A DNA stretch of 64,000 bases from NCBI RefSeq assembly GCF_000214595.1, contig NZ_AFIG01000001.1, positions 496,001-560,000 on the forward strand, given 5' to 3'. The position numbers and the translations under genes are program-made. Under the pieces are notes generated by a model. It was not told the DNA's origin. It did no database searches and saw nothing but the letters and a program-made list of their open reading frames with translations. Positions within the stretch are counted from its first letter, which is position 1, and each line of letters begins with the position of its first letter. This document shows positions 6,255 through 53,216 of the stretch, one piece after another. Source of the DNA: Methylophaga thalassica MP (lineage in GTDB: Bacteria; Pseudomonadota; Gammaproteobacteria; Nitrosococcales; Methylophagaceae).

Positions 6255-7988
6255 CTATTTTGTTACAGATTTGGGTAATTGGTAGTGGGCTTCGATCATT
6301 TCACGAGTCAGAATGCCGTAAATCCGTTCGATCATCGGGGCGTTCTGACGGCTGACATAAAGGGCTTCTACATGATGTTCGTTCAGGGCCTGATACGCTT
6401 CGAAGAGACTGGTATGTAAGGAAATTTTGTGTACATCCCGACGTGTGCCTGGAATCTGCATTAAGTCGATTTCGCTGTTTTCGCCCATCTCTTTGACGCT
6501 GACCGCTCTTGCCAGATCACTGGCAGGCATCATCACAACCGGGATGCGATCACGGGTGATGATGATCCATTCAGGACTGTTTTTTAGCGTTTGCATCGCC
6601 ATTTGAGCGTTGATCACTTGATTTAAGGTGACAAAATTACGTTGCATGGCTGCCCCAACACTGACTTTGCGTAAGGCTTGTGAGATCGGATCATTTTGAA
6701 AGTCGAGTCCACGATAGCGAAGAATGCTGACAAACAAGGCATCGAGCTTGAAGTAGTCATGAATAATCAGACTGGAGAAAACAATCGCCAACATACCTGG
6801 CAGGATGATTTCCGGGTTACCGGTTAATTCCAACATGGCCATTAAGGCGGCGAGCGGGGCTTTGAGCGTGGCCGACATCATTGCGCACATGCCGATAACC
6901 GCATAAAAGGTCATCGACGAAGCATATTCCGGTAACACTAAATTACCGATATAACCCAGAATGGCACCGGCACATGCACCGACTACCATGGTGGGGCCGA
7001 CCATACCTGCGGGAATGCCAAAACCAACACAGGCAGAAGACAGCAACAGTTTAAGAATCAGAATAATGACCAGGCTGCCAATCGCGATTTCATTAGCAGA
7101 AATACTGCCAATAATGCCGTAACCCATACCCATTACTTCGGGTACGGCCATGCCGAAAATCCCCATTAAAATGCCGGCATAAGTCGGACGCAACCAAGCC
7201 GGATGTTTACTGAATGTGCCAGAAAATAGTTTCAGACTTTTGAGCGACAATGTAGCTAAAAAGCCAATAATAATGCCGAGAAAGATGATGTAGGGCAGCT
7301 CCCATAATGATTGCATTTGGGTAGCGAGATTGACGAAAACGGTATCATCACCAAATGTCAGACGGCAGACTACTGCGCCGGTGACGGCTGCCAGAATGAC
7401 CGGAATAAAGCTGGCGATATGGTATTCCATCATGATGACTTCCATCGCGAAGATCACTCCAGCGATGGGGGTATTAAACGAGGCAGCAATGGCGGCGGCA
7501 GAGCCTGAGGCCACCAGAATACGCACGCTGTTATTTGGCAGTTCTAAACCACTGGCGAGTATACTGCCGCTGGCGGCACCCAGGTGAACCCCTGGACCTT
7601 CACGGCCAACAGAGTGGCCGGTGATAATGGCGATACTGGTACCGATAAATTGGCGAACCGCATTTTGCCAGGGAAGCCTGCCTTCATAAGAAGACAGCCG
7701 TTCGATCACATGTAAGATACCGGTATTTCGCTGCTCTGCATCCAGTCCACGAAATAACAATCCGATTAACAGACTGCCAATGATGGGCAGTACTAGTAAC
7801 CAGTACCACGGTAAGCTGTCGTAACTTTCGACTTCGCCGGAGGGAAATAAAGCCATCTGACCAAAATCAATGGTGAGACGTAACAGGATAATGGCCAGGC
7901 TCGACAGTAATCCGGTGATGACCGCAAGTACGTAAAGTTTTACGCCTAATCGACCAAAGATAAAGTACTGTCGGATTTTTTCCAGCAT
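6255..7988 (-). CDS. ClC-family chloride channel/transporter with CBS-type tail
   Basis: A 577-residue membrane protein with the ClC signatures GREGPGVHLG (carrying the gating glutamate), GSAAAIAASFNTPIAG and GFGIPAGMVGPTMVVG. About the first 430 residues are the channel with many membrane helices. The C-terminal 140 residues look like CBS regulatory domains. The position equivalent to the intracellular proton glutamate of E. coli ClcA (Glu203) appears to be valine (FAMEV), and the first GSGIP motif is replaced by NTGIL. That would fit passive chloride conduction or altered coupling, though the alignment is by eye. It follows hemN on the same strand with only 5 bases between, so it may be co-transcribed with it. 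Confidence 0.9.
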   Translation of the reverse strand: MLEKIRQYFIFGRLGVKLYVLAVITGLLSSLAIILLRLTIDFGQMALFPSGEVESYDSLPWYWLLVLPIIGSLLIGLLFRGLDAEQRNTGILHVIERLSSYEGRLPWQNAVRQFIGTSIAIITGHSVGREGPGVHLGAASGSILASGLELPNNSVRILVASGSAAAIAASFNTPIAGVIFAMEVIMMEYHIASFIPVILAAVTGAVVCRLTFGDDTVFVNLATQMQSLWELPYIIFLGIIIGFLATLSLKSLKLFSGTFSKHPAWLRPTYAGILMGIFGMAVPEVMGMGYGIIGSISANEIAIGSLVIILILKLLLSSACVGFGIPAGMVGPTMVVGACAGAILGYIGNLVLPEYASSMTFYAVIGMCAMMSATLKAPLAALMAMLELTGNPEIILPGMLAIVFSSLIIHDYFKLDALFVSILRYRGLDFQNDPISQALRKVSVGAAMQRNFVTLNQVINAQMAMQTLKNSPEWIIITRDRIPVVMMPASDLARAVSVKEMGENSEIDLMQIPGTRRDVHKISLHTSLFEAYQALNEHHVEALYVSRQNAPMIERIYGILTREMIEAHYQLPKSVTK

Positions 7989-50937: not shown

Positions 50938-51681
50938 ATGGCAGAAAATGTTGTTAAACGACAAGTGATTCTGGATACCGAAACCACCGGTATCAGCACC
51001 GCTGAAGATCATCGAATTATTGAGATTGGCTGTGTGGAAATGGTTAACCGCCGCCTCACTGGGCAAACATTTCATCAATATATTAATCCTCATCGTGAGA
51101 TTGATGCTGGTGCGATTGAGGTTCACGGTATCACCAATGAATTTTTAGCGGATAAACCCAGCTTTGAAGATATCGCTGAAGATTTTTTGCAATTCATTGA
51201 AGGTGCCGAGTTAATTATTCATAACGCCCCGTTCGACGTTGGCTTTATTGATCACGAGCTCAAAAAATTGAGCGGCGAAAATCGCCGGGTTAATTCGCTT
51301 TGCACAGTATTAGATACTTTAAAAATGGCCAGGGACAAACATCCGGGCCAGAAAAACAATCTCGATGCCTTATGTAAACGTTATGACGTCGATAACTCCA
51401 ACCGTGAGTTACATGGAGCCTTACTGGATGCTGAGATTTTAGCGGACGTTTATTTAGCGATGACCGGTGGCCAGGTTAGTATGTTGCTGGCCGCTAATGA
51501 AGAGGAAACGGTAACCTCAACCCCATCAGGAAGCGAAGCTGAAGAAGTGATTGCGACTGTGAAGTCCAGAAACCTCAAAGTCATCCGAGCCTCGGAGGAA
51601 GAACTTGCTGCGCATGAAGCAATGCTAGAGAAAGTGCAGAAAAGTAGTGGTGGGGAATGTGTTTGGTTGAGAGAATCATAG
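50938..51681 (+). CDS. dnaQ: DNA polymerase III epsilon subunit
   Basis: The 3'-5' proofreading exonuclease of the replicative polymerase. The 247-residue protein has ExoI VILDTETTGIS, ExoII IHNAPFDVGFIDHEL and ExoIII HGALLDAEILADVYL (DEDDh with His). The C-terminal part would bind the polymerase alpha subunit. GAGGACACC precedes the start. Last gene of the rnhA-dnaQ pair; accessory DNA starts right after it. Confidence 0.97.
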   Translation: MAENVVKRQVILDTETTGISTAEDHRIIEIGCVEMVNRRLTGQTFHQYINPHREIDAGAIEVHGITNEFLADKPSFEDIAEDFLQFIEGAELIIHNAPFDVGFIDHELKKLSGENRRVNSLCTVLDTLKMARDKHPGQKNNLDALCKRYDVDNSNRELHGALLDAEILADVYLAMTGGQVSMLLAANEEETVTSTPSGSEAEEVIATVKSRNLKVIRASEEELAAHEAMLEKVQKSSGGECVWLRES

Positions 51682-51700: not shown

Positions 51701-52578
51701 ATGGACTTTTTCAGTGAAAAAGAAGCAAAAAGTTATACATTAAGCATGATGACTGGATATTTAAGTCATGAGCAATTGCTTCAAAAACTTGATGACTTTA
51801 AAAATTTTCGCGAGATTGAGCCAAACGATGAAGAAAAAGAGTATTGGTCGAAAAAAATAACTGAGCTTGAGCACTGGTTGAATAGTTCTAAATATCAAGA
51901 TGGAGAATATCCTCAAGGTCTAGATCAATTATTTCTTGATTTAGTTGAGTGGAGAGCATCAATTTTTGCATTGCAGTCGGTCAACGCAACTAAAGAGCTA
52001 TTTAGTAAATATATCTTTTATAGTCAGTGGATGAATGGGGCTACATACGCTGTTTTTTCTATTCTTGGCAAACTTGTTAGTAAAGATCGTAGAGTAATAC
52101 ATTAAGAAATTTATGGGATGATGTAAAAAGCTATATTTCAAGATCTGAGTTACTTGGTGAAGGTGAGTTTTTCTTCATTGAAGAAAAAATGAATAAAAGC
52201 GTAGGTCATTTTAATAATAAAAATTCAAAAGCATTGTTCTTTCGTAATAAAACTGTTGCTCACAATGAGCTTTCCCCAAAAATCGATTGGAATGACGTAG
52301 ATAAAGATATACATTTATTGTCTCGGATCTGGTCGGTCCTCAGTATGTGGTCGTCTCATGGAAATATTGGTCTATTTTATGATTCGAAAGCTGCATTTTT
52401 AGGGTTTGAAAATATACTAAGTCAGCAAGATATTGTTGAATTAATACAAAAAAGAAAATTATATCTAGGGTTTGTTGAAGATTGGTTTGTATCAAGCTTA
52501 TTAGATGGCCGAAGAGTTGGAGATAGAACGCCTGAAGTAAAACTTCATATTCATACGTCTGATATAGAAAATACATAA
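51701..52578 (+). pseudogene. Frameshifted HEPN-like (AbiU2-like) gene
   Basis: Two ORFs, 51701-52105 and 52189-52578, are in frames one base apart. The second frame is open back to 52093, right after an in-frame TAG, and reads SNTLRNLWDDVKSYIS directly into it. The first ends LVSKDRRVIH and stops at 52105, so a single-base loss near 52090-52095 explains both and restores a protein of about 292 residues. The joined product contains RNKTVAH, an R-x5-H pattern like the RNase site of HEPN proteins, and the helical layout resembles AbiU2-type HEPN proteins. It lies in AT-rich sequence beside dnaQ and looks acquired. It is most likely an inactivated toxin or defence gene; a sequencing error is possible. 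Confidence 0.65.
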
Positions 52579-52595
52579 AACTACAACTTCAGACG

Positions 52596-53096
52596 CTGCC
52601 GCTGGGGCGTTCATTTATTTTGTTTGCCCAAAATAAACGAACCAAACAAAAGGGCACCCGATATTGCCTTATATCTAAAAATTAACTTCATTTTATGGCG
52701 TGGACACCAACTCGCTACGCTCAAACACGTGCCCACTTAACCCATAAAATGAAGCCAATTTTTAGCGGCAATAGACGGGAAGAAAAGAATTCTCTCTTTC
52801 CCCGTTTGTGCTGACGAGGAATGACATTTATTCAGGTCTGAGGGAGGCTAGTGTTTGAGCGTAGCGAGTTTTAGCCGACCGCCTGAATCAATGTTATGAC
52901 GAGTGGAGCCGCAGGCCAGCACGGTGGGGTGCCCTAGGGTTGTTAGGGAAATGGGCAAGCATTTCCCTGACTCGCCAGCAAGGCGAAACTAAAGACTTAT
53001 AAATCTAAAATAAACCTTCGTGTATTGATGATGGTTTGTTTTTTTACGTTGCCATTGAGGCGTGCATTTATTTTTGGACAAGCAAAATAAATGAAC
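52596..53096. repeat. Non-coding mosaic of inverted and direct repeats (about 500 bp)
   Basis: No gene is present. Inside are four palindromic modules. (1) GTTCATTTATTTTG-6-CAAAATAAACGAAC at 52609-52642. (2) A long imperfect pair, 52663-52698 with 52742-52772, including CTTCATTTTATGG and CCATAAAATGAAG. (3) A perfect 18-base inverted pair CTCGCTACGCTCAAACAC (52711-52728) with its complement at 52851-52868. (4) A 9-bp hairpin around AGGGAAATG (52945-52968). The end at about 53050-53096 repeats the start: GGCGTGCATTTATTTT versus GGCGTTCATTTATTTT, again followed by a complementary arm. The structure suggests a non-autonomous mobile or dispersed element. Confidence 0.7.
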
Positions 53097-53188
53097 TCGG
53101 ATTTAGCCGGAAACTTCGAAGCTTAAATAATCAAATAACGCTTTGAATACAAGTAATCACAAAAAAATCAATAAATTCCAAAGTTTTC

Positions 53189-53216
53189 CTTGAAATCAAA
53201 TTTTTTACCCCCAGAT
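53189..53216 (+). promoter_or_regulatory. Sigma-32 heat-shock promoter of grpE
   Basis: CTTGAAA (53189-53195), a 13-base spacer and CCCCAGAT (53209-53216) match the sigma-32 consensus CTTGAAA-N11-16-CCCCATNT, 37 bases before the grpE ATG. Confidence 0.9.

Follow-up and report, generated by a model that had tools for sequence, protein, structure and literature searches.

What occupies the palindrome-rich intergenic stretch between dnaQ and grpE in Methylophaga thalassica MP, and does it belong to this locus alone or to a wider family? The window analysed here, a 64,000-nt stretch of contig NZ_AFIG01000001.1, holds in this order dnaQ (50938-51681), which encodes an RNase_T exonuclease, a broken gene, the element and grpE. 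The original prediction, made from the sequence letters, had described a compound, non-autonomous element, possibly a dispersed family or an extensively folded RNA. Far from being a single copy with no similarity anywhere and no covariation, the stretch was found to have further copies in its genome, similar sequences in other genera and covarying partners.

Anatomy and dispersal of the element

The element proper extends over about 400 bp (about 52594-52990) with the module order A-B-C-END, and is followed by a decayed partner hairpin (53046-53096). The predicted 500-bp mosaic is really these two parts together, although its ends are indeed related by a long-range inverted pair (52609-52633/53072-53096). 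HEAD (52594-52609, plus strand), an outer mini-hairpin CGCTGCCGCnnGGCG, marks the element start, as placed by an exact pattern and by the edge of similarity in a match list that includes chance matches. Module A (52609-52656, plus strand), delimited by repeat search and covariation, contains a hairpin with arms 52609-52622/52629-52642, whose loop TGCCC (52625-52629) can pair with GGGCA (52652-52656) in a loop-tail helix. Its R strand is AAAATAAA (52630-52637) and its third strand AAACAAAA (52644-52651), the whole reading GTTCATTTATTTTG-TT-TGCCC-AAAATAAA-CGAACC-AAACAAAA-GGGCA. Module B (52660-52775, plus strand, outer limits approximate) is a long imperfect stem-loop with the apical loop AACTCGCTACGCTCAAACAC (52709-52728), and module C (52805-52915, minus strand, limits equally approximate) is a stem-loop carrying the reverse-complement loop (52851-52870). 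The END module (52930-52990, minus strand) is of pseudoknot type, with TGCCC (52930-52934) facing GGGCA (52953-52957), a stem at 52942-52953/52960-52971 and an outer mini-hairpin (ACTCGCC..GGCGAAA). The decayed inverted partner of module A (53046-53096, minus strand) retains a hairpin (53062-53074/53084-53096) without a third strand. The spacer of about 57 bp that precedes it (52990-53046) resembles one common to three tandem elements of genome G000 (L121:5432-6740).

The nested inverted repeats of the original prediction were recovered by a repeat search which, besides the hairpins of module A, END and the decayed partner, gave the pairs 52675-52698/52742-52765 and 52709-52733/52846-52870 (25 nt, 92%), with a 20-nt perfect self-match also seen by BLAST. 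The predicted 18-mer pair is present at 52711-52728/52851-52868, its arms being 122 bases apart by recount instead of 123. The expected extensive folding was borne out on both strands: the predicted RNA fold of 52580-53110 reached -198.7 kcal/mol on the plus strand (z = -9.1) and -188.2 kcal/mol on the minus strand (z = -9.2), and none of 100 shuffles was equally stable on either. The gene list of the window places no gene inside the element which, together with its modular build, agrees with its description as compound and non-autonomous. Rfam covariance models at gathering scores returned three tRNAs only in the whole window, and sub-threshold matches only for 52500-53200 in evalue mode. An intrinsic terminator was considered and rejected, with one terminator-like match against 0.8 expected and no promoter-like match.

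The suspected dispersal was confirmed by BLAST. The 3.26-Mb genome gave 33 matches at E<=1, corresponding to about eight elements at five or six loci, and the element was detected in 33 of 57 relatives, namely all 22 of the same genus and 11 of 12 of the same family, with none among six genomes from another family of the order and 17 others of the class (0/23). The exact HEAD pattern occurred in 60 stretches of named genome contigs, of which 46 bear the title Methylophaga and two the title Cycloclasticus; among the 14 with other titles, one from Planctomycetota (L213) stood without the rest of the element. Copies have in common HEAD, module A, one or two inner stem-loops (B, C) and END. The stem sequence of the inner stem-loops varies among copies and their 18-base apical loop, AACTCGCTnCGCTCAAACA, is constant, C bearing it reversed.

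Beyond close relatives, two patterns were searched in 369 gammaproteobacterial genomes. The loop pattern matched 30 of them (reversed pattern, 0), with a maximum of 32 matches in one genome (G133). The outer-module pattern, TTTCTTTN{4,12}AAAGAAAN{4,8}AAAGAAA, matched 71 genomes in 62 of 271 genera (reversed control, 2/369), with 30 matches in G352 and at least 16 plus/minus pairs 400-540 bp apart among the matches listed. When 120 genomes were drawn from the whole phylum, the same pattern matched 16 (control, 1). Ten of these 16 belong to f191, a single family in a different class, and their loops are mostly shorter. None of the outer-module counts is a census, because the pattern covers the G-type module only and the matches were not each verified. 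In the f191 genomes, triplex motifs with loops mostly of 4-6 nt were seen as inverted pairs (G440, G443) and tandem arrays (G449).

Carriage of the element by plasmids or phages was rejected, since the window element matched nothing in the collections of plasmids and phages, and the HEAD pattern nothing in viral contigs. Two distant elements matched plasmids over short lengths only, including Caballeronia, Variovorax and Pasteurella records, which suggests relatives outside Gammaproteobacteria; one Caballeronia record was matched at up to 17 places. A generic triplex pattern matched at least 120 viral stretches, which are mostly read as chance, because the loop-tail helix was present in 29 of the 121 instances listed and the outer stem as well in six. 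No description of this element was found in the titles and abstract openings of open-access papers, nor is it mentioned in the accessible portion of PMC5918138.

An interspersed element with inverted ends and no gene of its own, reaching 32 loop-pattern matches in G133 and 30 module-pattern matches in G352, recalls an ordinary MITE, whose terminal inverted repeats would be moved in trans by a DDE transposase, the structure being a by-product. Against it, four complete elements from other genera fold as large nested palindromes whose two ends are alike in structure and share little sequence, and no target duplication was seen at the locus pairs compared, so that we regard a MITE as very unlikely.

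The outer module and its proposed folding strand

The layout of module A corresponds to an H-type pseudoknot with an added third strand. A set of 80 unique modules was assembled from 37 HEAD-pattern loci entries, 34 family or genus loci entries and nine loop-pattern entries, four of 84 matches being dropped for want of a [GT]AACC linker; because of these sources the set is mostly, not only, from Methylophagaceae. The third strand mirrors the R strand in 77 of the 80 modules, against a shuffled mean of 25.6 and a maximum of 41, and a parallel register was found in 14. The mirror pairs comprise G with G at distance 3 (31 modules) or 4 (8) from the linker, T with C (29) and all-A with all-A (9), and the rule was obeyed by all nine modules added through the loop pattern. 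G is known to recognise a T-A step in the pyrimidine triplex motif. Read on the minus strand, the mirror pairs give U.A-U, C.G-C and G.U-A triples in the parallel Hoogsteen sense, and a pyrimidine-motif triple-helix pseudoknot would form on that strand.

The loop-tail helix was counted across genera. In 34 modules from loci of 30 of the 71 genomes matched, retrieved by a search pattern in which this helix is not specified, it reached at least 4 bp in 26 (shuffled mean 5.6, maximum 14); it was missing in eight, two of which are probably chance matches. In the 80-module set it was present in 66, against a high shuffle background (mean 36, maximum 46). The outer stem, counted with L324 and L326 left out, pairs by Watson-Crick rules in 131 of 160 cases (82%), compared with 36% in shuffles (maximum 49%). 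The END module has the same topology, with the helix in 15 of 16 unique modules (shuffled mean 9.6), a count no better than its shuffles, whose maximum was also 15. All these module shuffle statistics ignore kinship. As far as can be judged from sequence, three consecutive triplex-forming blocks lie in one strand, as in an intrastrand triplex (77/80), and stem, loop-tail helix and third strand covary, as in a triple-helix pseudoknot. In sequence, the outer module thus has the hallmarks of an RNA knot that a three-stranded helix holds together.

The strand concerned was approached through mismatches. On the A-forward strand, A.C exceeded G.T by 16:3 in the cross-genus pattern loci and by 93:21 in the first module set, where 75 of the 93 fall at one conserved position. 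On the loop-forward strand of the B/C stems the ratio was 205:77, with 625 other mismatches counted in the stems around 122 of 140 unique loops. This excess implies that the opposite, outward-reading strand tolerates wobble, which suits RNA and also single-stranded DNA. A G.T wobble is better tolerated than A.C in single-stranded DNA too, and the asymmetry therefore does not separate RNA from DNA.

The sequences show that the element is dispersed and modular, that its partner strands covary, that it takes nested inserts and that it neighbours a variable gene slot. Probably, though with moderate confidence, the stretch is one member of an intergenic repeat family that is modular, non-autonomous and maintained for a folded single strand. 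The folded strand would be the outward-reading one, and a transcript entering from either side would therefore bear, close to its 3′ end, a triple-helix pseudoknot of canonical type. The element may spread in trans by some machinery, and it may persist at gene tails because it does least harm there or because it steadies transcript ends.

Nested inserts and locus comparisons

A 70-nt unit (GATTCGTG...AATTTGT) was found in 28 distinct contexts. In 24 of them, by eye, it plainly occupies the apical loop of a module A, B or C; the remaining four (L134:6879, L145 and two in L039) are decayed or cut short. At the xerC-polA locus this unit is present in one strain and absent from another of the same species (6499/6567 versus 7591/7589), with a 3-base overlap; a target duplication is not clear, because the other contexts have at most one or two bases in common. 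For the whole element, neither a clean empty site nor a target duplication was found in G000 versus G079 or in G022 versus G008, and the attempt to set its boundaries by empty sites was abandoned, as these pairs show replaced intergenic regions, the 70-nt nested insert excepted. At xerC-polA in two close genomes, with flanks 98.1-99.6% identical, the element stands in opposite orientation and with different modules. In G008 the element is split between modules A and B by an inserted segment of about 1.3 kb that has the look of a transposase gene (L132, reverse complement, about 6585-7915). A non-exhaustive search for a partner enzyme returned none.

Such replaced or inverted intergenic regions between close genomes could also be explained at the DNA level: the modules would be intrastrand-triplex and cruciform DNA that stalls replication, and the mosaic, the inserts and the intergenic replacement would be by-products of template switching or repair with no selected function. 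In the available part of their text, Holder et al. 2015 (PMC4666352) link a G/C-rich intrastrand triplex motif, TM_ECO, to variable intergenic loci of E. coli, and the TM_ECO consensus occurs inside some of the present elements as well (L144, L147, L310). The loop-tail helix kept across genera is not expected of a pure instability product, and the occurrence of one 70-nt insert in three module types is more suggestive of a moving unit than of local slippage. We hold this account to be possible but doubtful, and retain as the favoured one a repeat family maintained for its folded strand.

Gene setting and accessory-gene slots

The placement before the heat-shock operon, noted in the original prediction, is correct insofar as grpE adjoins the element; it is not special, because the same kind of element follows glmU, dinB, xerC and others (these gene names, like polA and ppc, were read by eye). 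A second GrpE-like match, 39% identical, lies at G079:C3:338238-338720 (L271) in another strain of the species. Between dnaQ and the window element lies an accessory gene (51701-52578, plus strand) in two frames, 51701-52105 and 52189-52578 (open from 52123), neither piece of which had a Pfam or PADLOC match. This gene is absent from the dnaQ locus in G013, G022 and G079, and the slot genes of G000 and G008 at this locus have no blastp similarity to each other. Where the accessory gene is missing, a GTAGGTTGGGTTGAGGAACGAAACCCAAC-type palindrome, which we take to be REP-like from its GTAG start, was seen between dnaQ and the element (L267:6490-6550; L129 in G022; L137 in G013), and G000 has one like it ahead of its glmU element. 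In G079 (L269:5690-6180) an HNH-like gene, by eye, flanks the element at its END side; the same locus of G000 lacks this gene.

The position of copies relative to genes was counted in 28 Methylophagaceae clusters with both module A and the loop, from loci that are partly orthologous and with mechanical ORF calls, some on the wrong strand. A modest gene-tail bias was observed: 37 facing gene ends were 3′ and 19 were 5′ (p = 0.011), and the gene pairs were 10 convergent, one divergent and 17 codirectional. A looser set of 52 clusters, including lone and partly spurious A matches, gave 64 versus 40 ends, with 18 convergent and six divergent pairs. In codirectional cases the module side faced the 3′ end in 11 of 16 (p = 0.105).

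For glmU, 30 loci were collected, two of which had no readable glmU end. Module A was found downstream within the fetched stretch in 19 of the 28 readable loci, in the same orientation for the first module in all 19, and 18 of the 19 have an ORF of at least 80 aa ahead of the module (slot ORFs not all being proven genes). The remaining one, G070, has the element and a coding-like stretch in which no ORF of at least 80 aa is listed. The element lies farther out in G005 and G079. In G063 and G072 neither element nor slot gene was present, a similar convergent gene coming next, and in G066 there was no element within 1473 nt and the ORF is on the other strand. Four loci were undecidable: G015, with no element within 1494 nt, and G018, G030 and G062, whose stretches end at 1280, 781 and 76 nt.

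The content of these slots changes from genome to genome. A blastp comparison of 24 hand-picked slot proteins gave one similar pair. Seven of 20 slot proteins (19 from glmU, one from dnaQ) passed the Pfam family cut-off, the families being SRA-HNH, T5orf172, FRG, SocA_Panacea (2), M78 with HTH and PemK-like. Five of 20 proteins scanned with PADLOC matched at E<1e-10 (PDC-S57, PDC-S15, PDC-S31, and RmrT with RmrA as a pair in one genome), all from the 16 glmU-slot proteins; the other four, from the dnaQ and xerC loci and the window pieces, had no such match. The element is often found next to a slot whose accessory genes vary, some of them defence-like, and its repeated copies could supply the homology alongside which such genes are exchanged.

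The same loci invite the explanation that the element is an attC-like recombination site ending small accessory-gene cassettes inserted behind housekeeping genes, as the constant orientation behind glmU in 19 of 28 loci, with an intervening ORF in 18, the two elements farther out, the two genomes with neither element nor gene and the PADLOC matches in five of 16 slot proteins would suggest. It is nevertheless unlikely: the element also stands directly behind core genes, such as dnaQ in G013 and G022 and, by eye, ppc in L145, the two glmU-slot ORFs of G013 run against glmU, and no common left boundary was seen in eight loci. If the favoured folded-strand family is taken together with the gene setting, a broader and decidedly tentative reading emerges. 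A widespread, uncatalogued class of natural triple-helix pseudoknots may end a selfish bacterial repeat whose symmetry would give a protected 3′ end to transcripts from both sides, and whose copies, lying behind housekeeping genes, could offer landing sites at which small defence genes replace one another.

To our knowledge, the triple-helix pseudoknots described in bacteria all belong to a small number of riboswitch-type RNAs. The present fold, if real, would add a common, multi-copy one, and the signature of the outer module matters because the family is missing from Rfam. The natural compensatory variants (R-strand G with third-strand G, T with C, and shifted positions) make the triple directly testable. 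The element would, moreover, mark loci at which cargo of one or two genes, partly defence-like and differing by species, lies behind essential genes.

Among known systems, the bacterial intrastrand triplex motifs described by Holder et al. 2015 (PMC4666352), where TM_ECO was earlier named PIT, are alike, judging by the accessible sections of that paper, in having pyrimidine, purine and mirror third strands in one DNA strand, and in being multi-copy, intergenic, also arranged as inverted pairs and located at variable loci. TM_ECO has a G/C-rich 9-nt consensus, whereas the arms of the present element are A/T-rich and it adds, relative to what those sections describe, a covarying loop-tail helix, inner stem-loops, nested inserts and a length of about 400 bp. 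The consensus, CCCTCNCCC N3-6 GGGNGAGGG N3 GGGNGAGGG, has no match in the window; elsewhere it gave 10 matches in eight loci, some of these loci overlapping; among the matches are an inverted pair (L310:1731-1841), L144:5008 and L147:5272 inside elements. The families R0-R200 of P. fluorescens are, in the available text of Silby et al. 2009 (PMC2718517), interspersed intergenic repeats, several of them hairpin-forming, with R200 and R26 of 320-352 bp and a bias to tail-to-tail gene pairs, suggested to be the least harmful place. The interspersion, the hairpins and the tail-to-tail bias are shared, but that text mentions no pseudoknot or triple, the comparison being by description and not by sequence.

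REP/BIME repeats with TnpA-REP (RAYT) resemble the element as intergenic palindromes in composite arrays, but REP units measure 20-40 bp and the element is absent from 30 Y1_Tnp loci, not all from element-bearing genomes. A REP/RAYT origin was rejected, these loci giving a single 17-nt match (E 0.48); the genomes G002, G005, G008 and G028 carry the element and have no Y1_Tnp match. Finally, in the major-groove triple-helix pseudoknots of telomerase RNA and the SAM-II riboswitch, a U-rich loop 1 lies in the major groove of stem 2 and forms U.A-U triples. The same arrangement is indicated here at the level of sequence, with the difference that those RNAs are single genes or riboswitches, whereas the present candidate would form the end module of an interspersed repeat.
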